A stretch of 64,000 bases of DNA from positions 1 through 64,000 of the IMG/VR virus record IMGVR_UViG_3300046461_000123. The stretch is one strand, 5' to 3'. Of this stretch, positions 8,503 through 46,435 are shown one piece after another. Within the stretch, counting starts at the first letter, position 1. The number at the start of each line of letters is the position of its first letter. The notes under the pieces are model-generated. The model worked only from the letters and a program-made list of their open reading frames with translations. It searched no databases and was not told the origin of the DNA. This DNA is from a virus. Made by a program: the position numbers and the translations under genes.

Positions 8503-9435
8503 ATGGCCATCTCTCGTGCACAACTGATGAAGGAGCTTCTGCCGGGGCTCAATGCGCTGTTCGGACTGGAGTACAAGCAGTACGCCGAAGAGCACAAGGA
8601 CATCTTCGACACCGAGTCTTCGGAGCGCTCGTTCGAGGAAGAAACCAAGCTGGCGGGCTTTGGTGCCGCGCCGGTCAAGGCCGAAGGCGACGCGATCGCG
8701 TACGACAACGCACAGGAGGCGTTCACCTCGCGCTACGTCCACGAGACCATTGCGCTTGGGTTCAGCGTCACCGAGGAAGCGGTCGAGGACAATCTCTACG
8801 ACTCGCTCTCGGCGCGCTACACCAAGGCGCTGGCTCGTGCGATGGCGTACACCAAGCAGGTCAAGGGTGCGGCCGTGCTCAACAACGGCTTCAGCCAGAA
8901 CTTCCTGGGTGGTGACGGCGTGTCGTTGTTCGGTATCAACTCGGGCGGTACGCGCACCGGGCATCCGCTGGTCGGCGGTGGGTTCAACTTCAACAATCCC
9001 GCTGTCGGCGTGGATCTGAACGAGACCTCGCTCGAGGCGGCGATCATTCAGGTCGCAGCGTGGACCGATGAGCGCGGCCTGTTGATCGCAGCCAAGCCGA
9101 AGAAGCTGGTGGTGCCGCCGTCGCTGATGTTCGTCTGCGTGCGGCTGTTGCAGTCGGAGGGGCGTGTTTCGACCGCCGACAACGACATCAACGCGATTCG
9201 CAACATGTCGGCAGTTCCGGGCGGCTATACGGTCAACCACTTCCTGACCGACACGAACGCATGGTTCCTGAAGACGGACGTGCCGAACGGCTTGAAGTAC
9301 TTCGATCGCGTAGCGCTCAAGACGAGCATGGATGAGGACTTCGACACCGGCAACTGCCGGTACAAGGCCCGCGAACGCTACAGCTTCGGCTACAGCGATG
9401 CGCTGGGCATGTGGGGTAGCGCCGGCTCGACTTGA
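8503..9435 (+). CDS. Major capsid protein
   Basis: 310 residues with GGAG before the ATG. The N-terminus (MAISRAQLMKELLPGLNALF) is a helical arm. The centre holds an E-loop-like region rich in acidic residues (SSERSFEEETKLAGF) and a Gly-rich loop (GGTRTGHPLVGGG). The C-terminus (YKARERYSFGYSDALGMWGS) matches the close of many HK97-fold capsid proteins. It is followed by a strong terminator, consistent with the most highly expressed late gene. Confidence 0.88.
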   Translation: MAISRAQLMKELLPGLNALFGLEYKQYAEEHKDIFDTESSERSFEEETKLAGFGAAPVKAEGDAIAYDNAQEAFTSRYVHETIALGFSVTEEAVEDNLYDSLSARYTKALARAMAYTKQVKGAAVLNNGFSQNFLGGDGVSLFGINSGGTRTGHPLVGGGFNFNNPAVGVDLNETSLEAAIIQVAAWTDERGLLIAAKPKKLVVPPSLMFVCVRLLQSEGRVSTADNDINAIRNMSAVPGGYTVNHFLTDTNAWFLKTDVPNGLKYFDRVALKTSMDEDFDTGNCRYKARERYSFGYSDALGMWGSAGST

Positions 9436-9455
9436 ATCGGGGTTGCGGCACTGGC

Positions 9456-9487
9456 AAAGGCCCCTGCGGGGGCCTTTTCTTTTGTTT
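9456..9487 (+). terminator. Intrinsic terminator after the capsid gene
   Basis: AAAGGCCCC (9456-9464) pairs with GGGGCCTTT (9469-9477) across a 4-base loop. It is followed by TTCTTTTGTTTT. This is a classic rho-independent terminator about 20 bases after the capsid stop codon. Confidence 0.85.
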
Positions 9488-9594
9488 TGAGCAGCGTACA
9501 CTGCGCTCGTTCCGGGACTTCAATCCATCGCGCCACGACTGGCCCGGCAGACGACATGCAGACGTGGCACGCATCACTCGCATGTGAGGAACCT

Positions 9595-9846
9595 ATGGCA
9601 CGTACCACTTTCTCTGGTCCGGTCGCTTCTGACAATGGCTTCATCGGTACGCTCCTGCCACCTGCAGGTGTGGGCTACGGCATTCTCTTCACGCCGATCG
9701 CCAGCGCGTCGCTGCCGGCGCCTGCCGCGTCGATCATGGGTGCCGTGGGGCTGGTCAACGACAACGGCGTGGGCAACAACGAATGGTGCCTCGTGATCTG
9801 CACGGGTGCCGCGTGGGTCACTTGCACGGGGCAGGCGCTGACGTAA
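9595..9846 (+). CDS. Small virion-module protein, unknown function
   Basis: 83 residues from the ATG at 9595, with GAGGAA ahead; upstream in-frame starts are weaker. It begins MARTTFSGPVASDNGFIG and is Gly/Ala/Val-rich with beta-type sequence and two Cys near the C-terminus (CLVICTGAAWVTCTG). It is the first gene after the capsid terminator. It may be a small fibre-like or decoration protein, but nothing in the sequence proves it. Confidence 0.6.
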   Translation: MARTTFSGPVASDNGFIGTLLPPAGVGYGILFTPIASASLPAPAASIMGAVGLVNDNGVGNNEWCLVICTGAAWVTCTGQALT

Positions 9847-9856
9847 GGAGTCGGAC

Positions 9857-10114
9857 ATGGGACAGAAAACTAATCCCAGCCCGACGTACCCGACGTTCCC
9901 TGGTGGTGCCGTTGCTGTTGTTCCAAGCGACACGGTGCTGCTGGCAAACCCCTCCGTGATCTACGTGGGGGGTGCGGGCAACGTCAGCGTGCTGACGGAG
10001 CAGGGTGACACCGTGACGTTCACGGCGGTGCCTGTGGGCTCGGTGATTCCGGTGCGCGTGATGCGCGTGAATGCAGCGGTCACGTCAGCGACACTGATGA
10101 TCGCCATCTACTAG
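9857..10114 (+). CDS. Small beta-rich head-spike or fibre-type protein
   Basis: 85 residues, with AAGGAG before the ATG. The sequence is almost all beta-forming (AVAVVPSDTVLLANPSVIYV, then VIPVRVMRVNAAVTSATLMI). Small proteins of this build follow capsid genes in many phages, and some sit on the capsid surface. The function is inferred from this pattern only. Confidence 0.6.
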   Translation: MGQKTNPSPTYPTFPGGAVAVVPSDTVLLANPSVIYVGGAGNVSVLTEQGDTVTFTAVPVGSVIPVRVMRVNAAVTSATLMIAIY

Positions 10115-26352: not shown

Positions 26353-29300
26353 ATGCCTACCTACAGCATCACTGCGCCCAACGGGCGCACGTACCGGATG
26401 ACGGGGCCGGACGGGCTGGAGCAGGCCGACTTGATCGCGCACGTCATGGAGTTCGATCCAGACGCGGGCATACCACCTCCGCCGCCAAAGACGGGTGTTG
26501 GCGCTGCGTTCGCGTCGGGGCTCGAGAACATGTACACGTCGGGTCGGACTGCCCTAAAGGGCGCTTTCGGCGATCCGGTGGCAGCGGCGCAGGAAGGGCT
26601 GGCAGCACAGCAGGCCCAGGAGCAGGAGTACGACCCGCAGGTTGGGACGCAGCGGGTCCGCGAAGCATGGAACAAGGATGGCCTGCTGGGGGCTGCCGGT
26701 GAAGTCGTTAAGCAGGCGCCGCGTGCGATCGCACAGTCGCTTCCCGAGATGGGCGCGATGTTCACTGGTGCCCGGCTTGGTGCGATGGCCGGCAGTGCGA
26801 TCGCACCCGGTCTCGGCACGATCGTCGGTGGCGTTGGCGGCGGCATCCTGGGTGGGCTGTTGCCGCAGGCTGGCCGGAACATGGTCACGCAGCAGGAGAC
26901 GCATCCGGGTGATGTCAGTGTCGGCAAAGCGTACGGCGCTGGTGCGGCACAGGCCGCACTCGAGGAGGTGACGCCGCTGGCGCTCATGGGCACACGCGTT
27001 GCCAGCAAGGTGTTCGGCAGGGATATGCCGGGGCTCATTGCACGCCTCGGTCCCGAGGCTGCCGAAGAAGTCGCGCAGGCGAGCCTGAAGTCAACGCTCG
27101 CAAAGGGCGCGCTGCACGGGGCTGTCGGTGAAGGCACTACCGAGGTGATGCAGGAAGCGCTGGGTCGGTTGCAGGCCGGGCAGTCGCTGACCGATGCCGA
27201 CGCGATGCAGGCGTACGGTGAAGCTGCCTACGGTGGAGTGATTGCCGGCACGCCAATGGGCGCTGCTGGTCACGCTTACGAACGTAGCGGGGCCAAGCAG
27301 GAGGTAGCGGCCGGGCAAGCGGCGGCAGCGCAGCAAGAGGCGCAGCGCGCGGCTGAAGCGCGGGCAGCTGCGGAGCAAGCCGCAACGGCAGCCGATGCGC
27401 AGCGCAAGGCGGATCCGCAATATGCCGCGCAGGTGGAAGAGCAGTACCTCGCGCATGAGGCGAAGACGAAAGAGCTGCTGGCGCGCAAGGCGGCATACAG
27501 GGCCGAGAAGACGCAGGCCGGCTTCGCCGCGATGAAGGACATCGACGAGGAACTCAAGGCCCACATCGCTGGCGGCAAGGATCTCGTTGACGCGTACAAC
27601 GCCACCCGACCGATACGGGAAGCGGCAGCTGCCGCCAATGCAGCCACTGCCGCTGCCCAGGCCGCTCCGCCGGAACCGGGCACACCCGTGGCGCCTGAAG
27701 GGGCGCTGTTCGGCGGCTACGAGGATGCCAAGGCGCAGGAGCGCATAGACGCGCTGCAAATGCAGATCACCGAACGTGGGCAAGACCTGACCACGGCAAA
27801 CGAGCAGGTGATGGGCATCATGCGCTCGGGCACCAGTGCCCAGATCGCGCAAGCGCGGATCGGCCTGAAGCAGCGTGAGACGGAGCTGCAGGCGGCGCGG
27901 GACGAGCTTGACAAGCTGGCGCCAGGGCTGCGCGCGAAGCAGGAAGCCGACGCGGCTGCCGCGGATGCGGCGGCGATCGAGCGGATGAACTTCAATCCCG
28001 AGGTGGCGCAGCAGAAGATCGTCGCGCTGACGGACAAGCTCCAGCAGGTCAACGACCCGAGCGAAGCCAGGAAGGCCGAAGGCTGGGCACGCGAACGTGA
28101 GCACTTGCAGACATTGCTGGCGGAACATGCCGCCGACACCGGGCCGGGCGCGACCGAGACGGAGCCGACCTACGGCGAGGACTTGTTCCAGCTCGGACAC
28201 CGGGTCCGGGCCGAAGAAAAGCTGTCGGGCATGCGCCAGCTTGCCCAGCAGCGGGGTCTAGAGGCGCTAGGACGCGGCGAAGCGACCCAGGCGTGGCCAG
28301 ACCTTGATCCGCGCTCCCACGAGCCGCCAGGGACGCCCTACGGCGACACGGCGGAGAACTTGGCGCGGGAAACGGACGACGCGTTCAACCGGGCTTTCGC
28401 TTCCAAGCAGCGCATGGCCGCGCTCGATGCGCTGGCAACGTCCGGTGACGAGGACGCGCGCTTCGTGCAGATCGCCATGCGCAGCCCGATCACGGGTGAA
28501 GGCGGCGCGATCGTCGAGCATCTGGCCAGCCTGCCGGCGGACGAGCGCATGAACGCGGCCCGCTCGCTGCAGGACTTCGGCAAGACGATCAAGCAGCGCC
28601 TGCATGAAGGGCTGAAGACGGCGCGTGCCGGCGGCGATCGCATTCGCGCCGAGAGCTTCATCGATGCGATCCGGTCCATAACGGCGACGGAGCAGCAGAC
28701 GAAGGGGCGTGCGCACTACACGGCCGACTTCTACAACACGGCTGCCCGGTTGGTTCCAGGCGTGTACCAGGGTGCGCGCGAAGCGGTGGGGATGAGTGCT
28801 GCCGCGACGACGCCCGAGCAGCAGGCGCGTGCCAGCGCCGGGCGGCACTTTCAGGTGCTGGACGATCTGCAGAAGCGCATGCAGGGCGTGGCCGATCCGC
28901 GGGCCACGGCGGCGATGCAGGCGGTGGCCGACGAAGGCGAAGCCGATGTCGCGCCCCCGCAGCGGCGCGCTCGCGAGGATGTCACTGGCCAAGCCATGCT
29001 GTTCGAGCCAGCGGCCGGGCCGGCGCCAACCGCGGACACGCCCCGTCAGCTGGTGCGCCAGCGCATCGACAAGCTGCTCGCCACGCCCGGTCTGTCCGGT
29101 CAGGCGCGGGCGACGTTGCGCCGTGCGGCGGACGTGGTGGGTGGTGCGGCCGAAGGTGCCGGCCATGTTCCCGTACGTGTTCTGGAGAACATCACCGAGA
29201 TGGTCACGCGGGCCGAGCGGGGCGTCGGTGCCAAGACGGCCGAAGTGCGCCGTCCGCTGGAACCGTCAGCGCCGCGCGAGGTGCAGGGCACGGGCGTGCT

Positions 29301-32300
29301 TGTCGGCAACGAGGGCGAGCTGTTCCCGAGCCAGCCGACCGCCGCCGTCCGCCAGGGCCATGTCGTCGCGAAGGAGTCGAAGCCGAAACTGCAGCGTCTC
29401 GAGACCGAGCAGATCGGCAGTGCCGGCCGGGACGAAAGCCAGCAGGGCGACATGTTCGATGCGCTGCACGTCGGCCGCGCCACGGCTGCCAATTTCCAAC
29501 GAGCACTAGACACCGGAGCGTTGCCGTCCAAGCGGGGCGAGCAGGAAGTCGGCAAGCACGTCCAGGGGCTGCGCTTGGCTGACGCACTGCTGCAGCTGAA
29601 GGTCCGGGGGCTGAAGGCGCGTCTCACCGATTCGACCAGGGCGCGCACGCGGCTGGAGGGCATCAGCGAGCAACTGGCCAGCATGCCGGCGAAAGCCCGC
29701 AAGGCAGCGGCCGACGAGTTGCACGCGAGCATGATGAAGGCCACGGACGCGGCGCTCAAGGCCAACGACACCCTGCAGGAGCTGCGGGTGGCACGCGGCG
29801 AGGGCGAGACGGTCGAGGAGCTGGACGACCGGATGCAGCGCGCTGAACGTGCGCAGCAGGCGGTCGAGTTCCAGACGGCACGGGTGGACTTCCTGAAGAC
29901 GCTGCACAAGGCGCTGACGGAAGCGGACGCTGTACCGGCGCTGGAGCGCTCGGCTGCGCGGCACAAGGAGCTGGTCAAGCAGCTGGCGGCAGCCGAAGCG
30001 GACGTTGCCGCGAACGCGGCCGACCTGAAGGTGCGGCAGGCCGAGATGCAGGGCAAGCAGCGCAAGGCAGCCAAGGCCGGCGCCGTCACCGGGCCGAGCA
30101 TCGAGCGCACGCAGCCGCGTCTGCTGCCGCAGCAGCCCAAGCCCGTGAAGGCCCATGTACCGACCGAGGCGCAGCGGCAGGCGACGGCGATCGCCGCCAG
30201 TGCCGCCGACTACGCAGCGCGCACTGGCGAGCGCGTCACGCGCGTTGAAGCCCGTCAAGCCGAAGGCGGCATCGATGTCACGTCCGATGCGGTGAACGAA
30301 GCCGTCTCGACGGCTATGGCTGTTCCGGGTGTCACCCAGGCGGCGCTGCAGAAGGCGTTCGATCGCGTGCGCACCAAGGTGCTGCCCAAGGCGTTCACGA
30401 CACGCCAGGGTGAGATCGCCACCGAGCTGGGCCGGGTCGATGCGGAGATGAAGCGGCTGCGGGCGGCGAACGACGGCGGCGTGCTGCCCCCGGCGCTGGC
30501 CAAGCGTCACACCAGCGCGGTGCTGTCGGTCCCGCTGCTGGAGCAGCAGATCAAGGCTGCCAAGAGCGCGGATGCACGAGCGCAGCTGATCGATCAGCTC
30601 GATCGCGTCGAATCGCGCATCAAGGACTTCGACGCACAGCGCACGCCGCTTGTGGACAACCCGCAGTACCGCGAGCTGCAGCGGCAGGCCGCACTACTGG
30701 ATTTCGAGAGCACGGTGCTCGATATGCAGGAGTCGGCCGTGCATGCGGCGGCTGGGTACAAGTCTGTGGGCAAGGATGTGGTGACGCCGCGCGCGGCGCG
30801 TGCGGAGCAGCGTGCGTCGAGGGGCGTGGTCGAGCCCGCGGTGCAGCTGGCGGGCAAAGCCGTCACGCGCATGGACGCGGCGCAGATCGCCAGGGAGAAG
30901 TCGAAGTACGGGTACAAGGGCCGTGCCTTCGCACCGACCGAAGCGCAGACGGAGGAAGCCGTTGCGCACAGGGCTGGGGCCATCGCCACGGATGCGGCAA
31001 TCATCGCCGCGCGCGACGCGAAGGAAGCCAAGGGCAAGCCGCGCGCCTTGACGCCGCTGCAGGCCCTGAAAGTCATGCAGGCAGTTGCTGCGAAGCGCGC
31101 TGCCGAGCAGACGCCGCAGACGGCCAAGGAGCGCAAGGCAGCGGCGAAATCGGAAGGGGTGCCCAAGATCATCTCGGATTCCTACGAGGCGCTCGATCAG
31201 ACGGCGCTGTCGCAGCAGAACATGGAGCATGCGCATGACGGGCAGCTCGACAAGATCCTTGAGTCGCTGACGAAGACGGGCTCGACGCCGCAGACGCGCG
31301 AGCTGGCCGGCAAGCTGGGAGCGCTGCTGAAGGACACCAAGCTGCGCGTCGATGCCGACGTGAAGGCCCACGGTGCGTCCGTGTCGGCGCTGTACGACGC
31401 CCCGACGAACACGCTCACGCTGCACCCGATGGCGCTCACCGAGGAAAACCTGCTGCACGAGGGCGTGCACGGCGCCACGTTGCGCGCGCTGGTCGCACCG
31501 GCTAGCCAGATGACGCGTGCGCAGCTCAATGCACGCAGCGAGCTGACGCGCTTGCTGACACGCATCCAGAAGGATCCGGCGTTCGCGCGCGAGTACGGCC
31601 GCGAGAACCTTGCCGAGCTGGCGGCGGAGGTGATGTCGAACAAGGATCTGCGCGCCAAGATCGATGCGCAGTACCCGCCAGGGTTCTGGCGCCAGTTGTG
31701 GAATGCGGCGCTGCAGATGCTCGGCATCACGCCACGCACGGCCAGCGAGCGGGCGATGGGCAGTGTCGAGAAGTTGTTCCAGCCGGCGCGCACGTTCACG
31801 GCCGCTGAGACATCAGTGATGTATGACATGCTGGGCGCCACATCCGCGCCGGCTGCTGCACGCGCTGCACGCGCTGCGCCAGCGAGTGCGCTCGATGCGT
31901 TCAGCAGCATGATCACGGCCGAGCCGGCGCCGCAGGGCGTGCGCGCCTTCATGAAGGACTCCAATGCAGGACTTGCTGCGGAGATGGCGCTGGTAGACCA
32001 GCGCGCGCCGATCCTGAAGGCGCTGTCCAAGGGCGATAAGGCCGCGTTCGAGCAGGCCCAGTACAACCTGCGCAAGTCCGACGCGCGCATGGCCCAGGTC
32101 TACGCGGTGCTGCAGCGCGGCCCGGCGCAGCTCAAGCGCGATGCCAGGGGCAACCACATCGTCGAGGCAGGCAACGGGCCATCGGCCAAGCAGATCTTCG
32201 AGGCGATCGGCAAGCTGCCCGGCACCACGCCGGAGAAGCAGTTCTCCACTGCGCAGGCGTACATGGTTGCGCAGCGCGCGGCCAACAAGGGCTGGGACAA

Positions 32301-34488
32301 ACTGGGCTTCGAGACGAGCGAGGAGTTCCGTGCTGCCGGCGAGGCGGCACTGGCGCAGGCCAAGGCCGACCCGGCGCTGCAGGCCAAGCTCGATGTCGTG
32401 CGTGGCATGTACAACGACTACAACAAGGGCATGGTGCAGTTCCTTGCCGACACGGGCGCGATCCCGAAGGCCACGGCGCACAAGCTCATCAAGGACGGGG
32501 ACTACGTGCCGTTCTACCGTGTCGATAGCGCAGGTGGTGCGGCTGAACTCGTGATGGGTGAAGGCACGAACATCCGCGTGGGCGATGTGCGCAAGCAGCC
32601 GTACCTGCATCAGCTCAAGGGCGACAGCGGCAAGCTGCTGCCGCTCAACGAAGCGATCATGCGCAACACCATGTTGCTGACGGACATGGGCCTGTCGAAC
32701 ATGGCGACGAAGAGCGTCGCCTACGCGCTGCAGGACATGAGCCAGGAGACGCGCGGCGTCAACCGGATCCGGGACACGCCCGCACCGACCGGCGCCGACA
32801 TCATCAAGTTCAACCAAGAGCCCGACCCCAACAAGGCGGGCGACACGGGCGAGCGCTGGATGCGCGTGCAGTCCGAAGGCACGCCGTTCGAGGGCATCCC
32901 TGCCGAGATGCTGGTGCAGTCGCTGGAAGGCTCGCACCATGTGATGACGGGCATGGCCAAGCTCGCCGGCCGCTTCGGCGACATCCTGCGCGCGGGCGTC
33001 ACGCGCTCGCCGATGTACATGATCCGGCAGTTGGTCCGCGATCCGATGTCGGCTGCGTTCACGGCAGGCACGACGCGCGGGCCGGTGCGCGCCATGTTCG
33101 AGACCATGCGCGAGTTCACGGCGCAGTCGATGGGCAGTACCGAGGGTGGCGAGATGCTGCTGCGCAAGGGCGTGGCCCAAAGCGGCATCTTCACTGGCGA
33201 CGCCGACGATCTGAGCAAGTTCGCGCTGCAGTTGGCGCACGGCAACCAGAGCGCGATCACGCGCCTGATCAGCATGGCCGATCGCGCGGCGATGCGTGCC
33301 GATGCGGCGACGCGCACGCAGGTCTACAACGACACGCTGAAGAAGACCGGCTCCGAGATGCAGGCCGAGCTGGCGGCGATGGAGATGATGAACTTCAGCA
33401 AGCGCGGCAGCAGCCCGACGGTGCAGCATGCATCTCGCATGATCCCGTTCCTGAACGCGCAGATTCAGTCGCTCAACGTGCTGGCCAAGGCGTTTCGCGG
33501 CAACATGCCGCTGGAAGATCAGCTGCAGATCCGCAGCAAGTTCCTGAAGAACGCGGGCGCGCTGACTGCCTTCTCGCTCATCTACGCGATGGGCATGGAA
33601 GACAACGACGACTACAAGAACGCGACGGCGCAGGAGCGCTTCAACAACTTCTTCGTACCGACACCGATGGGCACGCTCAAGGTGCCGATCCCCTACGAGG
33701 TGGGCCTGCTGTTCAAGGCGCTGCCCGAGGCGGCGGCGCGGGCCATGAGCCAGGGGCTCGACGCGACAGACTGGAAGGCGCTGCGCGACGCGGCGCTGAA
33801 CACGATCCCTGGTGGCGGCAACTACGCCGTGATCCCGCAAGCCGTCAAGCCACTCGTCGAGCTGGGCCTGAACCGCAACATGTACACCGGACGTGCCATC
33901 GAATCCGAGACGCAGCAGAAGCTCGATCCCGAGGAGCGTTACGGCGAGAACACGACCGAGCTGGCCAAGACGATCTCGAGCCTGCTCCCGGCAGCGCTGG
34001 GCGTCAGTCCGTTGAAGATCGAGCATGTGGTGCGCGGCTATCTGGGCGGGCTGCCGATCGCTGCAGCATCGCTGGCCAATGAGATGCTGTCGGATGCGTC
34101 CATGCCGGAGCGCAAGGGCTCGCAGACGCCGCTGCTGGGCGGAATGGTCGCCGACTCGATCGGCCAGGGTCCGCTCGATCGCGCCTACGCGAAGTCAAGT
34201 GCCATCGAGCAGGCCGGCAACACGTACGACAAGCTCATCAAGGATGGCAAGCTGGCAGCCGCGATGAAGTACCGCGAGGACAACCTTAGCGTGCTGCAGT
34301 CCGATCAGCTGAACCAGCGCTTCAAGGCCGACATGCAGAAGGCCAAGGAGGCGCGTACGCGGGTGATGCAGGCGGAGAAGATGCCGTCCGACGAGAAGCG
34401 CAAGTGGCTCGATCAGATCGAGACGATGCGCAACAAGCAGGCCGACATCTTCACGCAAGCAGTCAAGTCGGTGGCCACTGCACATTGA
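26353..34488 (+). CDS. Giant polyvalent internal virion protein with metallopeptidase motif
   Basis: 2711 residues. Residues 136-178 hold a glycine-zipper hydrophobic stretch (GLGTIVGGVGGGILGGLL) that could enter membranes. Long charged Ala/Glu/Arg coiled-coil regions fill most of 300-1650. HEGVH at 1702-1706 is a zincin-type motif, with Glu1755 or Glu1759 downstream as a possible third ligand. The C-terminal region from about 2200 (GDILRAGVTRSPMYMIRQLV, then QIQSLNVLAKAFRGNM) resembles the large polyvalent protein-associated domain LPD38. Such proteins are packed in the head and ejected to open a path for DNA. No lytic transglycosylase motif was recognised. Confidence 0.8.
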   Translation: MPTYSITAPNGRTYRMTGPDGLEQADLIAHVMEFDPDAGIPPPPPKTGVGAAFASGLENMYTSGRTALKGAFGDPVAAAQEGLAAQQAQEQEYDPQVGTQRVREAWNKDGLLGAAGEVVKQAPRAIAQSLPEMGAMFTGARLGAMAGSAIAPGLGTIVGGVGGGILGGLLPQAGRNMVTQQETHPGDVSVGKAYGAGAAQAALEEVTPLALMGTRVASKVFGRDMPGLIARLGPEAAEEVAQASLKSTLAKGALHGAVGEGTTEVMQEALGRLQAGQSLTDADAMQAYGEAAYGGVIAGTPMGAAGHAYERSGAKQEVAAGQAAAAQQEAQRAAEARAAAEQAATAADAQRKADPQYAAQVEEQYLAHEAKTKELLARKAAYRAEKTQAGFAAMKDIDEELKAHIAGGKDLVDAYNATRPIREAAAAANAATAAAQAAPPEPGTPVAPEGALFGGYEDAKAQERIDALQMQITERGQDLTTANEQVMGIMRSGTSAQIAQARIGLKQRETELQAARDELDKLAPGLRAKQEADAAAADAAAIERMNFNPEVAQQKIVALTDKLQQVNDPSEARKAEGWAREREHLQTLLAEHAADTGPGATETEPTYGEDLFQLGHRVRAEEKLSGMRQLAQQRGLEALGRGEATQAWPDLDPRSHEPPGTPYGDTAENLARETDDAFNRAFASKQRMAALDALATSGDEDARFVQIAMRSPITGEGGAIVEHLASLPADERMNAARSLQDFGKTIKQRLHEGLKTARAGGDRIRAESFIDAIRSITATEQQTKGRAHYTADFYNTAARLVPGVYQGAREAVGMSAAATTPEQQARASAGRHFQVLDDLQKRMQGVADPRATAAMQAVADEGEADVAPPQRRAREDVTGQAMLFEPAAGPAPTADTPRQLVRQRIDKLLATPGLSGQARATLRRAADVVGGAAEGAGHVPVRVLENITEMVTRAERGVGAKTAEVRRPLEPSAPREVQGTGVLVGNEGELFPSQPTAAVRQGHVVAKESKPKLQRLETEQIGSAGRDESQQGDMFDALHVGRATAANFQRALDTGALPSKRGEQEVGKHVQGLRLADALLQLKVRGLKARLTDSTRARTRLEGISEQLASMPAKARKAAADELHASMMKATDAALKANDTLQELRVARGEGETVEELDDRMQRAERAQQAVEFQTARVDFLKTLHKALTEADAVPALERSAARHKELVKQLAAAEADVAANAADLKVRQAEMQGKQRKAAKAGAVTGPSIERTQPRLLPQQPKPVKAHVPTEAQRQATAIAASAADYAARTGERVTRVEARQAEGGIDVTSDAVNEAVSTAMAVPGVTQAALQKAFDRVRTKVLPKAFTTRQGEIATELGRVDAEMKRLRAANDGGVLPPALAKRHTSAVLSVPLLEQQIKAAKSADARAQLIDQLDRVESRIKDFDAQRTPLVDNPQYRELQRQAALLDFESTVLDMQESAVHAAAGYKSVGKDVVTPRAARAEQRASRGVVEPAVQLAGKAVTRMDAAQIAREKSKYGYKGRAFAPTEAQTEEAVAHRAGAIATDAAIIAARDAKEAKGKPRALTPLQALKVMQAVAAKRAAEQTPQTAKERKAAAKSEGVPKIISDSYEALDQTALSQQNMEHAHDGQLDKILESLTKTGSTPQTRELAGKLGALLKDTKLRVDADVKAHGASVSALYDAPTNTLTLHPMALTEENLLHEGVHGATLRALVAPASQMTRAQLNARSELTRLLTRIQKDPAFAREYGRENLAELAAEVMSNKDLRAKIDAQYPPGFWRQLWNAALQMLGITPRTASERAMGSVEKLFQPARTFTAAETSVMYDMLGATSAPAAARAARAAPASALDAFSSMITAEPAPQGVRAFMKDSNAGLAAEMALVDQRAPILKALSKGDKAAFEQAQYNLRKSDARMAQVYAVLQRGPAQLKRDARGNHIVEAGNGPSAKQIFEAIGKLPGTTPEKQFSTAQAYMVAQRAANKGWDKLGFETSEEFRAAGEAALAQAKADPALQAKLDVVRGMYNDYNKGMVQFLADTGAIPKATAHKLIKDGDYVPFYRVDSAGGAAELVMGEGTNIRVGDVRKQPYLHQLKGDSGKLLPLNEAIMRNTMLLTDMGLSNMATKSVAYALQDMSQETRGVNRIRDTPAPTGADIIKFNQEPDPNKAGDTGERWMRVQSEGTPFEGIPAEMLVQSLEGSHHVMTGMAKLAGRFGDILRAGVTRSPMYMIRQLVRDPMSAAFTAGTTRGPVRAMFETMREFTAQSMGSTEGGEMLLRKGVAQSGIFTGDADDLSKFALQLAHGNQSAITRLISMADRAAMRADAATRTQVYNDTLKKTGSEMQAELAAMEMMNFSKRGSSPTVQHASRMIPFLNAQIQSLNVLAKAFRGNMPLEDQLQIRSKFLKNAGALTAFSLIYAMGMEDNDDYKNATAQERFNNFFVPTPMGTLKVPIPYEVGLLFKALPEAAARAMSQGLDATDWKALRDAALNTIPGGGNYAVIPQAVKPLVELGLNRNMYTGRAIESETQQKLDPEERYGENTTELAKTISSLLPAALGVSPLKIEHVVRGYLGGLPIAAASLANEMLSDASMPERKGSQTPLLGGMVADSIGQGPLDRAYAKSSAIEQAGNTYDKLIKDGKLAAAMKYREDNLSVLQSDQLNQRFKADMQKAKEARTRVMQAEKMPSDEKRKWLDQIETMRNKQADIFTQAVKSVATAH

Positions 34489-41210: not shown

Positions 41211-41654
41211 TCAGGAATCCCGTGTTGTTATGTCGAATGCGTTGATGCGCTCACCCAGGACGCGGCTGTAGTCCATCATGATCGCTGCCTGTTCGCGCAA
41301 GCGGTCTTGCTCGGCTGCATAGACGCCGTTGAAACCGGGGGATGCGATGAACGTGAGCAGCTTCAGTCGTCGCGTGTCCACCTCAACCAGCTCAGCTACA
41401 ACGCGTTGCTGGTACGGTTGCAGGTGGACCACATCGCCGATGTCGATGTAGGCTGCCTCGAACACATCCTTGGGCGACCACGAGATGTAGCCGCTGTGGC
41501 GCGCGTCGTTCGGCGCACCACCATCGGTGTACTCCACAAGGTAGCCGGCGTCGTTGGTTTCCGCGGCGATCGTAGGCCAGCCCCGGTATTCGTTGTACGC
41601 AGCACGGCTCAATGGCTTCGCTTTGACGAGCTTGGTTCCGGTGTAGGTTTTCAT
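41211..41654 (-). CDS. Two-part phage protein with crAss001_48-like C-terminus
   Basis: 147 residues. The first 70 (MKTYTGTKLVKAKPLSRAAY, then GYISWSPKDVFEAAY) match a small module found in many tailed phages. The last 75, starting LQPYQQRVVAELVEVDTRRL and ending YSRVLGERINAF, resemble the helical hairpin called crAss001_48-related. Both halves often lie next to Acb2-like genes, as here. Function unknown; a counter-defence role is guessed from the neighbour. Confidence 0.65.
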   Translation of the reverse strand: MKTYTGTKLVKAKPLSRAAYNEYRGWPTIAAETNDAGYLVEYTDGGAPNDARHSGYISWSPKDVFEAAYIDIGDVVHLQPYQQRVVAELVEVDTRRLKLLTFIASPGFNGVYAAEQDRLREQAAIMMDYSRVLGERINAFDITTRDS

Positions 41655-41974
41655 TGCTGTTTCTCAAGTGGTGGGGTTGCCGCATCACCAAACGCGACTA
41701 CCATCAGGTTATGACCCTGCTGCTGCTGCTGCAGCTGCTGCTGCTGCTGCTGCTGGGCCACCTTGTAGGCGACGAAAGTCCACTTCAGCTCCAGCATGAT
41801 GTGCTCGTACGGAGCGTACGCGTAGGTCTTGCAGCAGTACGGGTAGTTGGTGAGCTTCACGCTGAGCTCGTCTCGCAGCGCAACCATATCGACACCGCCG
41901 AGTGTCTTTTGCCACGCACGATAGTCTGCCAACATCTGCGGGAAGAACGCATCGGTTTCTGAGTAGTGGTTCAT
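41651..41974 (-). CDS. Small protein with polyglutamine run
   Basis: 107 residues with an ATGA overlap with the next gene. The N-terminal part (FFPQMLADYRAWQKTLGGVD) and CCKTYAYAPYEHIMLELKWT look folded. Residues 74-86 are seven Gln, Leu, then five Gln, from a CAG-type repeat. The run lies between the core and a short tail, so length change would be tolerated. There is no recognised domain. Confidence 0.6.
   Translation of the reverse strand: MNHYSETDAFFPQMLADYRAWQKTLGGVDMVALRDELSVKLTNYPYCCKTYAYAPYEHIMLELKWTFVAYKVAQQQQQQQLQQQQQGHNLMVVAFGDAATPPLEKQQ
41717..41755. repeat. CTG/CAG trinucleotide repeat in a coding region
   Basis: Thirteen triplets: five CTG, one CAG, seven CTG on the plus strand. 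They encode the polyglutamine run of the leftward gene at 41651-41974. Such a repeat can change length by slippage while keeping the frame. Confidence 0.85.
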
Positions 41975-43004: not shown

Positions 43005-43820
43005 TCAAACGCGCTTGTAGCGCAGCGCGCCCAGCGCAACCAGCGCAAGACCTACCAGTGCCAGCGATCCGGGCTCGGGCACATTGGTCGTGCCGGGGCC
43101 GTTGCCGGCCAGATACGCCCACTCCTCGTAACCGTCAGCGGTGGTCGCCGACCCGCCGGCCCCGCCATAGGTCACGCCGAAGATGATCCGGCTGTCGAGC
43201 GCCACGTTGGCGAAGTCCATGACCGGGATCAGCATGGACAAGTCATAGCCCAGGCCGCTGCCATTGAACAGCGTACCGTCCATCACGATGTCGTTGCCCG
43301 GACCCATCGCATAGATCAGCGATGAGAACAGGTTGTCGATGTCGCTGAACTGCGTGACGTTGGCGTTGGTGAGCAGCTGCAGCGCGGCCGACTTGGCATC
43401 CCAGATGCGGATGGTGTCGATCGAGATCTGCTTGTCCTGCGCGCTGCTCGGCTCGTTGGTGTCGAGGAAGAACTGGTAGTACTGCACGCCACCAATGGTC
43501 CGGACGCCTAGCTGGTTCTGGGTGAACGTCGTGGTGAACGTGTTGACGTTATCGCGCTTGTCCTGCAGCGGCAACGTGTTCACGATCGGCGAGTCGGTCG
43601 TCACTCCGCCCTCGGTCCCGTTCTGCTGCGAAGTCAGGAAGGGGTTGATCGTCCCCGATCCGATGTTCGACAGGTTCGTCGGGTTCGAGTAGATCACCGT
43701 GCCCCCGCTGGTGTCGGTCGCGAACGAGCAGGTGCCATCCTTCGCGAACAGCGTGCAGACACCTGCCTGTGCAACGCCCATGACAGCCAACAAGGCTGCC
43801 GCCAATAGCGATTTCTTCAT
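43005..43820 (-). CDS. PEP-CTERM protein 1 (exported, exosortase substrate type)
   Basis: 271 residues with AGGAG before the ATG. The signal peptide MKKSLLAAALLAVMGVAQA is followed by a beta-rich body with Cys22 and Cys31. The end is a textbook PEP-CTERM signal: VPEPGSLALVGLALVALGAL, then RYKRV. Proteins with this tail are sorted by host exosortases and are linked to exopolysaccharide or surface layers. The signal peptide is nearly identical to that of the neighbour. Such cargo is unexpected in a phage; it may alter the host envelope during or before infection. Confidence 0.85.
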   Translation of the reverse strand: MKKSLLAAALLAVMGVAQAGVCTLFAKDGTCSFATDTSGGTVIYSNPTNLSNIGSGTINPFLTSQQNGTEGGVTTDSPIVNTLPLQDKRDNVNTFTTTFTQNQLGVRTIGGVQYYQFFLDTNEPSSAQDKQISIDTIRIWDAKSAALQLLTNANVTQFSDIDNLFSSLIYAMGPGNDIVMDGTLFNGSGLGYDLSMLIPVMDFANVALDSRIIFGVTYGGAGGSATTADGYEEWAYLAGNGPGTTNVPEPGSLALVGLALVALGALRYKRV

Positions 43821-43847
43821 TTGTTTCTCCTGAGAAGTTGAGAAGTA

Positions 43848-44462
43848 CTACGCCGATGCGTTCTGCTTCAGCTTGTACGCCCCGAGTACCAGCAGACCGA
43901 TGCTCATGAACGCCAATGAGCTTGGTTCGGGAATCGGCGACACGGGGGATACCTGCAGGTTGCCCACATACGATGCCGGCTGACCTGCTACCAAGTCAGA
44001 GATCGTGCCAGTCACATCGAAGGCGTATGTACCAGCGCCCAATGCGATGCCCTCGCTCACCACAGCAAAGCCCGGCGCCGTGGTTCCATCAGTAATCAAG
44101 GAACCAAGCGTCACTCCTGCACAAGCTCCCCCCGCAGAGCCTGAATTCGGATTGCACGTCGAACTCACGACGTTGTATACCTTCACGTCGAAGTTGCTGA
44201 TGTTCTCCGTTGGCAGGAAGATCATATCGAGAGACGCCAACCCGAGCGTGTTGGTGCTGAACACCCACAGGTTGTTGAAGTTACCGTTCTGCCCCGCCGA
44301 GGCGCTGCTGAACGTGCTGTTGTCGAAAGTCGCCGGGGCGTGTACCCCGAGGTTGGTTGCAACCGCTGCGCTAATGTAATTGCAGCTATCGCAAACAACC
44401 ACCGCTTGTGCCTGGGCCATGACACCAAGCAAGGCAGCTACCGCTAGCAGAGATTTCTTCAT
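43848..44462 (-). CDS. PEP-CTERM protein 2 (exported, exosortase substrate type)
   Basis: 204 residues with GGAG before the ATG. The signal peptide is MKKSLLAVAALLGVMAQAQA. The body is Gly/Ser/Asn/Val-rich with Cys pairs (VVCDSC and CNPNSGSAGGAC). The motif TYAFDVTGTISDLVAG and the beta pattern recall the small PEP-CTERM proteins of betaproteobacteria. The tail is IPEPSSLAFMSIGLLVLGAY, then KLKQ. It shares its first residues and its layout with PEP-CTERM protein 1, 27 bases downstream, so the two form a small operon. A 123-base gap upstream may hold their promoter, but I see no clear one. Confidence 0.85.
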   Translation of the reverse strand: MKKSLLAVAALLGVMAQAQAVVVCDSCNYISAAVATNLGVHAPATFDNSTFSSASAGQNGNFNNLWVFSTNTLGLASLDMIFLPTENISNFDVKVYNVVSSTCNPNSGSAGGACAGVTLGSLITDGTTAPGFAVVSEGIALGAGTYAFDVTGTISDLVAGQPASYVGNLQVSPVSPIPEPSSLAFMSIGLLVLGAYKLKQNASA

Positions 44463-44585
44463 TCATACACTCCAGGGAAAATACGGGGAAAGCCCCCGCT
44501 GGCTTGATAAAGCAATGTGCACGCCACTTATAGAAATCAATGAGTTAGCGCAACGCGGACTGCGCTGCGTAAAGAAAGCCGACAG

Positions 44586-44855
44586 CTACTTATCGGGAAC
44601 CGTGTAGCCCTTCATGCCCTTGCGCCACGCGCGGTTCCTGCCGGGCGCTTGCACCGACGTGTTGCCGGGAGTGTTGCCACCGCCATTGTCCAGCGCGGTC
44701 TTGTGTGCAACGTCTTTGCCGTCGCCGATGGGCGAGGCGCCGGACTTGATCGCAGCGCGCTGCGCAGCCTTGCGCTTCGTCTGCACGGCCACCTGCTTGG
44801 GTGTGTTGTTGTATACCTTCTGGTAAGCGAGCTTGGCAGGCGTTGACTTGGGCAT
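44586..44855 (-). CDS. Small basic protein with HNH-like signature remnants
   Basis: 89 residues, with AAGGAGA before the ATG. The N-terminal half is Lys/Gln-rich (KQVAVQTKRKAAQRAAIKSG). The C-terminal half, GKDVAHKTALDNGGGNTPGN, then NRAW, recalls the DVxHx...GG...N layout of HNH-type folds, with His in the usual place but other catalytic residues unclear. Similar small proteins are frequent in phages. It could bind DNA; the enzymatic role is unproven. Confidence 0.6.
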   Translation of the reverse strand: MPKSTPAKLAYQKVYNNTPKQVAVQTKRKAAQRAAIKSGASPIGDGKDVAHKTALDNGGGNTPGNTSVQAPGRNRAWRKGMKGYTVPDK

Positions 44856-45789: not shown

Positions 45790-46001
45790 TGCTTCTCTCC
45801 CAGTGCCGCAAAGCACGTAGCAGCCCTCAGTCGATTGGCTCGCGCCTGGGCATCGCCATCGGGCGTGCCCTTGGCGGCGTGCAGCTCGGCGTAATACTCG
45901 AAGGTCGCGATGGCCATGCGCAGTGCTGCTTGCGCTATGCCGAGCTGTACGTGTGCCTCGCATTGGCCGCAACCAGGGCAGCGGCAGTGTGCCTCGATCA
46001 T
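45786..46001 (-). CDS. Small Cys-rich N-terminal protein
   Basis: 71 residues; both ends overlap neighbours in 4-base stop/start overlaps. MIEAHCRCPGCGQCEAHVQL packs four Cys and two His into 18 residues, a likely zinc site, followed by a long helix (AQAALRMAIATFEYYAELHA). No known family; a small adaptor for the nuclease encoded next to it is possible. Confidence 0.6.
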   Translation of the reverse strand: MIEAHCRCPGCGQCEAHVQLGIAQAALRMAIATFEYYAELHAAKGTPDGDAQARANRLRAATCFAALGEKQ

Positions 46002-46435
46002 GGCATCCTCCGTAGCTGCAGCGTGTCTATCCCGTTACCGCAGTCGGACTGGAAGTGGCACGCCACTTCGATTGCCTTGTACGCGTCCCGGCCCAAGTAC
46101 ATCGCTGCTTCGGCGAAGTCGCGGCCCGCGCCCCACGCGCAACATCTGGCTTCGATCCACATCGGGTACGGACCGCGGCAGTAGTGACGGATGCCATCGG
46201 CGCCGATCACGATGAACGTGGCCTTGTCCTCCAGCGCAATCTTCGGGAACTTCTCTGGCTCGGCGCCGGCCTTGAACCACTCACGCACCTCAGCGCCGAT
46301 GTCCCAATCACCGCTGATGCCGAGGAGCATGTCCTTGTAAGGCCAGATTTTTGTGCAGGTGCGGGAGATGCCCCCGCCACTCACTGCGCGTTTGTCAGCG
46401 GCCAGCGTGGTGCCGTCCCAGGCGATGACAGTCAT
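45998..46435 (-). CDS. Ntn-hydrolase, proteasome/HslV-like phage protein
   Basis: 145 residues. The start MTVIAWDGTTLAADKRAVSG is the typical start of proteasome-beta and HslV folds: Thr2 would be the N-terminal nucleophile after Met removal, with Asp14 and Lys15 nearby. MLLGISGDWDIGAEVREWFK matches the next strand and helix. Phages carry such single-domain Ntn-hydrolases, whose substrates are unknown. It overlaps the MazG-like gene before it and the Cys-rich gene after it, so all are co-translated. Confidence 0.75.
   Translation of the reverse strand: MTVIAWDGTTLAADKRAVSGGGISRTCTKIWPYKDMLLGISGDWDIGAEVREWFKAGAEPEKFPKIALEDKATFIVIGADGIRHYCRGPYPMWIEARCCAWGAGRDFAEAAMYLGRDAYKAIEVACHFQSDCGNGIDTLQLRRMP

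Follow-up and report, generated by a model that had tools for sequence, protein, structure and literature searches.

Two adjacent genes of an uncultured phage, referred to as P1 and P2, encode predicted exported proteins with PEP-CTERM tails, and P1 belongs to a family with homologues at 22 viral contig loci (44-85% identity; search with P1 as the query, then with the P1 alignment). The proteins may be sorted to the surface of the infected cell by an exosortase of the host, where their ectodomains would shield the cell from competitors or alter its exopolysaccharide, a reading that is plausible although short of probable. More generally, and with some reserve, phages may own families of exosortase-dependent surface proteins. 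These would be encoded by exchangeable cassettes in which the ectodomain is conserved and the sorting signals are tuned to the host, would perhaps be activated by the host's PEP-CTERM regulon, and would recode the surface or exopolysaccharide of infected cells.

The genes were found in a 64,705-bp IMG/VR virus record (~64.7 kb), nearly all of which is covered by the window, the stretch of 64,000 nucleotides that was analysed. The right half of the window contains replication genes on the minus strand, including those for a DNA polymerase, a helicase and a primase-like protein, and the replication proteins are distantly similar to their counterparts in some Rhizobium phages and in phages of the KPP25 type. 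There was no sign that this phage is temperate. P1 and P2 are adjacent inside the replication module, each preceded by a ribosome-binding site, and the positions given for their open reading frames in an earlier note on this DNA are exact (Table 1). In both proteins, an ectodomain lies between a signal peptide and a PEP-CTERM tail. Elsewhere in the window, a giant open reading frame of 2711 aa (26353-34488, plus strand) is located in the structural half, and one of 3056 aa lies near P1 in L005/L008; such giant frames possibly encode large virion proteins. A 145-aa protein starting with MTVIAWDGTTLAADKRAVSG is encoded at 45998-46435 (minus strand) and is without a match in Pfam; its start recalls that of proteasome-like Ntn hydrolases.

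Table 1. The P1 and P2 genes, their parts and associated features; positions are those of the window unless a contig (L number) is named.
Feature	Position	Strand	Evidence or remark
P1, 271-aa PEP-CTERM protein, widespread phage family	43005..43820	-	PF07589 and TIGR02595 over cut-off; 22 viral homologue loci
P1 Sec signal peptide, residues 1-19, cleavage AQA/G	43764..43820	-	sequence inspection
P1 PEP-CTERM tail: VPEPGSLAL..., membrane span, RYKRV	43020..43082	-	TIGR02595 22.9 bits, E 1.6e-5
P2, 204-aa PEP-CTERM protein	43848..44462	-	four Cys conserved with L009 homologue (49%); NF038126 (FxDxF) below cut-off
P2 Sec signal peptide, residues 1-20, cleavage AQA/V	44403..44462	-	sequence inspection
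P2 PEP-CTERM tail: IPEPSSLAF...	43866..43934	-	TIGR02595 17.7 bits, E 7e-4 (six-frame); 13.7 bits as whole protein
P2-P1 intergenic stretch, 27 nt, AGGAG ribosome-binding site for P1	43821..43847	-	
P2 upstream block (~120 nt), conserved with block before L009 P2 homologue	44463..44582	-	flanking genes differ
Sigma-54-like -24/-12 site TGGCGTGCACATTGCT, 64 nt before P2 start, within upstream block	44511..44526	-	suggestive only
Terminator-like hairpin, closes upstream gene, would insulate cassette	44579..44596	-	scan: three such sites, 2.4 expected by chance
Strong hairpin, 15-bp stem, downstream of P1	42962..42995	-	-36 kcal/mol for 60-nt stretch, z -5.7
Acb2/Tad1-like anti-CBASS protein, nearest minus-strand gene downstream of P1	41984..42274	-	PF24729 58.8 bits, cut-off 27
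Second phage PEP-CTERM family (VILTFGQ...GTFSA ectodomain)	L034:9253-9903; L035:9346-9990; L037:~9341-9979		immediately upstream of P1 in each
L009 third PEP-CTERM protein, unrelated	L009:13888-14484		beside Acb2-like gene

By eye, the leaders of P1 (MKKSLLAAALLAVMGVAQA, followed by G) and P2 (MKKSLLAVAALLGVMAQAQA, followed by V) are of the Sec type, both combining an MKK start and a hydrophobic core with an AxA cleavage site, AQA in either case. A six-frame scan of the whole record with the TIGR02595 model (cut-off 16) yields exactly two matches, the tails of P1 and P2, and the same model finds no match in 14 control genomes. When scored as a whole protein, P1 exceeds the cut-offs of both tail models (PF07589, 25.4 bits versus 20.7; TIGR02595, 18.4 bits versus 16), whereas P2 stays slightly under them (18.4 and 13.7 bits, respectively). 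The P2 homologue in L009 retains a VPEP tail. The claim of the earlier note that both proteins carry a Sec leader and a PEP-CTERM tail therefore holds for the leaders and for the tail of P1; its proviso that the tails should not fail profile models is likewise settled for P1, which passes both curated cut-offs, and the tail of P2 is marginal.

All full-length homologues of P1 retain the leader, the ectodomain and the tail, with a conserved PEP motif, and the tail model scores over its cut-off in every P1 record tested except L003 (12.1 bits). In most phages the P1 gene sits in the replication module or alone, while in the L028 lineage it is found between genes for major head/virion proteins and tail/amidase genes. 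Terminase and portal-like genes are present on the same contig in L037, and a baseplate-like protein is encoded in L036. Among 50,697 records of deposited phage genomes, no match to P1 or P2 was found. The viral homologue loci, the syntenic relatives of the window phage and the phage structural flanks in L028 rule out a host insert or an assembly chimaera, the objection foreseen in the earlier note, and P1 and P2 are genuine phage genes. That they were acquired by chance from a host and have no function in the phage is scarcely credible. PEP-CTERM genes are indeed typical of exosortase-bearing bacteria (PMC1569441), and P1 has distant cellular relatives, but the spread over several phage types, the origin of four near-identical P1 contigs from four metagenomes, the structural genes on both sides of P1 in L028 and the presence of PEP-CTERM genes elsewhere in the syntenic relative L009 all speak against this explanation, of which the artefact version is already refuted. 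Moreover, P1 is under purifying selection, with dN/dS values between P1 pairs of 0.09-0.29.

The distribution of P1 among related phages is patchy. A simple script written for the purpose predicted the genes of the related loci, and as the viral contigs are mostly fragments, each absence refers to the stretch available per contig. In the stretches available, P1 was not found in the two closest relatives of the window phage, L009 and L010, whose DNA polymerases are 76% and 77% identical to that of the window phage; the 17-kb contig of L010 has no PEP-CTERM match at all, and L009 contains the single relative of P2, at a different position, together with a different, third PEP-CTERM gene. Conversely, the P1 proteins of the window phage and L003 are 82-85% identical, whereas their helicases share 26% identity and their polymerases lack BLASTP similarity. 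L038 and L039 have nine to ten gene clusters in common with the window phage, yet their P1 is just 45% identical. Where P1 lies in replication modules, the phages concerned have unrelated polymerases and helicases, and within the stretches compared several P1 phage lineages have few or zero common gene clusters besides P1. The patchy occurrence in close relatives and the discordance with the helicases and polymerases indicate that P1 is an accessory gene that is exchanged between unrelated phages.

Together, P1 and P2 look like a self-contained accessory cassette, as suggested by the hairpins at both ends, the upstream block shared with L009 and the sigma-54-like site. The two genes probably form one transcription unit. 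The upstream block aligns with its counterpart in L009 with a local alignment score of 82, versus at most 37 for shuffled sequences and 44 for the highest-scoring match at any other place in the loci compared, and looks as if it has moved along with P2. No sigma-70 promoter was found before P2. The degenerate consensus behind the sigma-54-like site was fixed after a first scan, and nothing else in the window matches it. With this same consensus, sites with at most two mismatches precede 8 of 21 phage PEP-CTERM genes and 12 of 166 control genes; after removal of close copies the counts are 5/17 and 12/166 (p 0.012, for a consensus chosen after the first scan). This apparent enrichment before phage PEP-CTERM genes is a lead. 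In proteobacteria, sites of this kind were reported upstream of most PEP-CTERM genes (99/167), at a mean distance of 71 nt from the start (Haft 2006, PMC1569441). At the other end of the cassette, the strong hairpin is likely a bidirectional terminator between convergent genes.

The gene convergent to P1 (42384-42950, plus strand) encodes a proline-rich protein with IWGPNDPRPSNPIAEPPWGWGRP repeats. As judged by eye, L034 and L035 encode a similar protein, ending in FGPGT.P.VAWV.PYA, immediately upstream of their PEP-CTERM pair, and in L037 a related protein is encoded after the pair. In L005/L008, L009 and L037, too, PEP-CTERM genes have an Acb2-like gene next to them or not far away, which may point to a common accessory region. 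P1, P2 and the other phage PEP-CTERM proteins gave no PADLOC match as defence-system proteins.

Two PEP-CTERM genes are present in five phages (the window phage, L009, L034, L035 and L037) and are adjacent in four of them. The earlier note attributed the pair to local duplication because of near-identical leaders. This similarity stands at the protein level, with 17 of 22 amino acids identical; at the DNA level it amounts to 21 of 27 bases, with differences at synonymous sites, compared with up to 19 of 27 for unrelated PEP-CTERM leaders elsewhere. The ectodomains of P1 and P2 are unrelated. In L034, L035 and L037, which share no more than two further gene clusters across the regions compared, the partner of P1 belongs to another PEP-CTERM family, unrelated to P2 (78% identity between the L034 and L035 partners). 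The third PEP-CTERM protein of L009 has no relatives in viral contigs beyond its own contig. Local duplication is rejected past the first 27 nt of the leader, and the unrelated ectodomains and the third-family partner in three phages suggest that the recurrent pair, in which P1 stays and the partner changes, was assembled rather than duplicated.

For P1 pairs with ectodomains that are 70-94% identical, identity in the leaders and in the tails is mostly 20-65%, apart from a few exceptions. This marked difference in conservation is most simply explained if the function resides in the ectodomain, and if the sorting signals either become adapted to the host or drift more quickly. The same difference makes it very improbable that the proteins serve as decoys, that is, as abundant substrates that occupy the host exosortase and block the maturation of host surface proteins, such as phage receptors or defence-related cargo. 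Two substrates per genome in five phages, and a tail that is the sole feature common to all cargo, would suit a decoy, but for this purpose the tail alone would suffice, and it is the ectodomain that is conserved while the tails drift.

Among 84,980 species genomes, a pattern scan reveals one close cellular relative of P1, a protein of Dechloromonas hankyongensis with 39% identity, the gene of which adjoins peptidase and pilin-like genes and is not in an obvious prophage. Since such a scan requires exact short peptides, a profile search with the ectodomain was added, which gave matches in 8 of 399 genomes of the Dechloromonas order and 7 of 398 genomes of the same phylum. D. hankyongensis is present in both sets, and the other matches score well below it. 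The cellular relatives inspected are PEP-CTERM or similar surface proteins, some of them very large or multidomain. In a tree with long branches, 16 phage sequences and the D. hankyongensis protein are set apart from the other cellular ones. These distant relatives and the grouping in the tree indicate that the P1 ectodomain is of a cellular surface-protein type, of which one branch became a phage family. For P2, a search of 300 genomes gave just weak, tail-weighted matches. An exosortase is encoded in the D. hankyongensis genome (248.8 bits), whereas none was found in the 16 phage records tested, so that processing of the phage proteins would rely on the host. A host assignment by DNA matches (19.9 kb against the 399 genomes of the Dechloromonas order) was uninformative, the top matches falling mostly in the CTG repeat of the gene at 41651-41974 (minus strand). 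This gene encodes a 107-aa protein, and the repeat (41717-41755) accounts for a stretch of glutamines, QQQQQQQLQQQQQ, close to the end of the protein.

The most likely course of events would comprise exosortase processing, surface display and a benefit through superinfection exclusion or surface remodelling. P1 and P2 would be expressed during infection and exported by Sec, after which the PEP-CTERM tails would anchor them in the membrane. The host exosortase would recognise the tails and release the proteins to the surface or the exopolysaccharide, where the ectodomains may mask receptors or change the exopolysaccharide coat such that other phages fail to adsorb. The roles suggested in the earlier note, a coat on the infected cell, a block to rival phages or the hijacking of surface-polymer sorting, are thus all plausible. 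A precedent is provided by phage surface lipoproteins that confer superinfection exclusion, such as Llp of phage T5 (PMC9586334) and the Ltp protein of Streptococcus phages (PMC3952083). Like a superinfection-exclusion protein, P1 and P2 are phage-encoded, carry an export signal (by eye) and are accessory in their lineage. Superinfection exclusion or receptor shielding fits best with proteins that are accessory, exported and exchangeable and have an anti-CBASS Acb2 gene nearby. The position of P1 between capsid and tail genes in the L028 lineage counts against exclusion, as P1 is probably expressed late there, when exclusion matters less. This late position is in line with the main rival reading, in which P1 and P2 are exopolysaccharide-binding cargo that follows the same sorting route and keeps infected cells or virions in the floc or biofilm, where progeny meet new hosts. 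Such a matrix or aggregation factor is rather unlikely, although cellular PEP-CTERM proteins of Zoogloea are needed for exopolysaccharide retention and floc formation (PMC9012009). The distant cellular relatives of the ectodomain, in PEP-CTERM and large multidomain surface proteins, look like ordinary matrix or adhesin cargo, with which adhesion or aggregation would fit as well as exclusion. On the other hand, no carbohydrate-binding or adhesin fold was found: the AlphaFold2 model of the P1 ectodomain (17 sequences) has a pLDDT of 56, and a search of the PDB gave a best E-value of 0.075, with no hit at or below 0.001. Without a recognisable fold, receptor binding cannot be argued either. The location among virion genes in L028 could also reflect virion components or membrane-bound periplasmic effectors for which the tail is an inner-membrane anchor only, as it would be in a host without exosortase. 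This is improbable, given that the Sec leader and the PEP motif are conserved in all full-length members and that the gene lies outside such a context in most phages.

If exclusion or surface remodelling by host-sorted proteins is correct, phage-owned exosortase-dependent families would represent a general strategy against hosts with exosortase-sorted coats. The occurrence of the P1 family in unrelated phages suggests repeated phage use of host exosortase sorting, and a phage route to act on floc- and biofilm-forming bacteria. Being small, conserved and transferable, P1 and P2 offer a handle on a long-standing gap, the function of exosortase cargo at the cell surface. A search of 5.39 million open-licence PubMed Central articles found no study of phage PEP-CTERM proteins and one passing mention of exosortase-type viral cargo, a single sentence that lists TIGR03118 proteins, with a putative exosortase-interaction domain and of unknown function, among the horizontally acquired proteins of Yellowstone viruses (PMC11003980). 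Those proteins are likewise exosortase-type cargo in viruses, but belong to a different family.

P1 shares the leader, ectodomain, PEP motif, membrane span and basic end with the bacterial cargo of the PEP-CTERM/EpsH system (PMC1569441; PF07589, TIGR02595), and P2, with its marginal tail, probably does so too; the candidate sigma-54-like site before P2 would be a further common feature. Such bacterial cargo is usually encoded in single-gene units, whereas P1 and P2 come from two genes in one apparent transcription unit, carried by phages whose records yielded no exosortase. P2 shows weak similarity over most of its length to the FxDxF family NF038126, but with 36.8 bits against a cut-off of 50 it is not a member. 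The sorting signal is also that of PepA and its floc-forming PEP-CTERM relatives from Zoogloea and Aquincola, surface cargo that can retain exopolysaccharide and form flocs (PMC9012009, PMC9850573); P1 itself scores 15.6 bits against the floc_PepA model NF033554, far from its cut-off of 80. With Llp (PMC9586334) and Ltp (PMC3952083), P1 and P2 have in common that they are small exported phage proteins at the surface of the infected cell, which for P1 and P2 is predicted; Llp and Ltp are lipoproteins, whereas the anchoring of P1 and P2 would need the host exosortase.

The morons of lambdoid phages are extra genes with their own transcription signals that occur patchily among close relatives and change the host cell. 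The P1/P2 cassette resembles them in being accessory and patchy; it may also have transcription signals of its own, which would be sigma-54-like rather than sigma-70-like.
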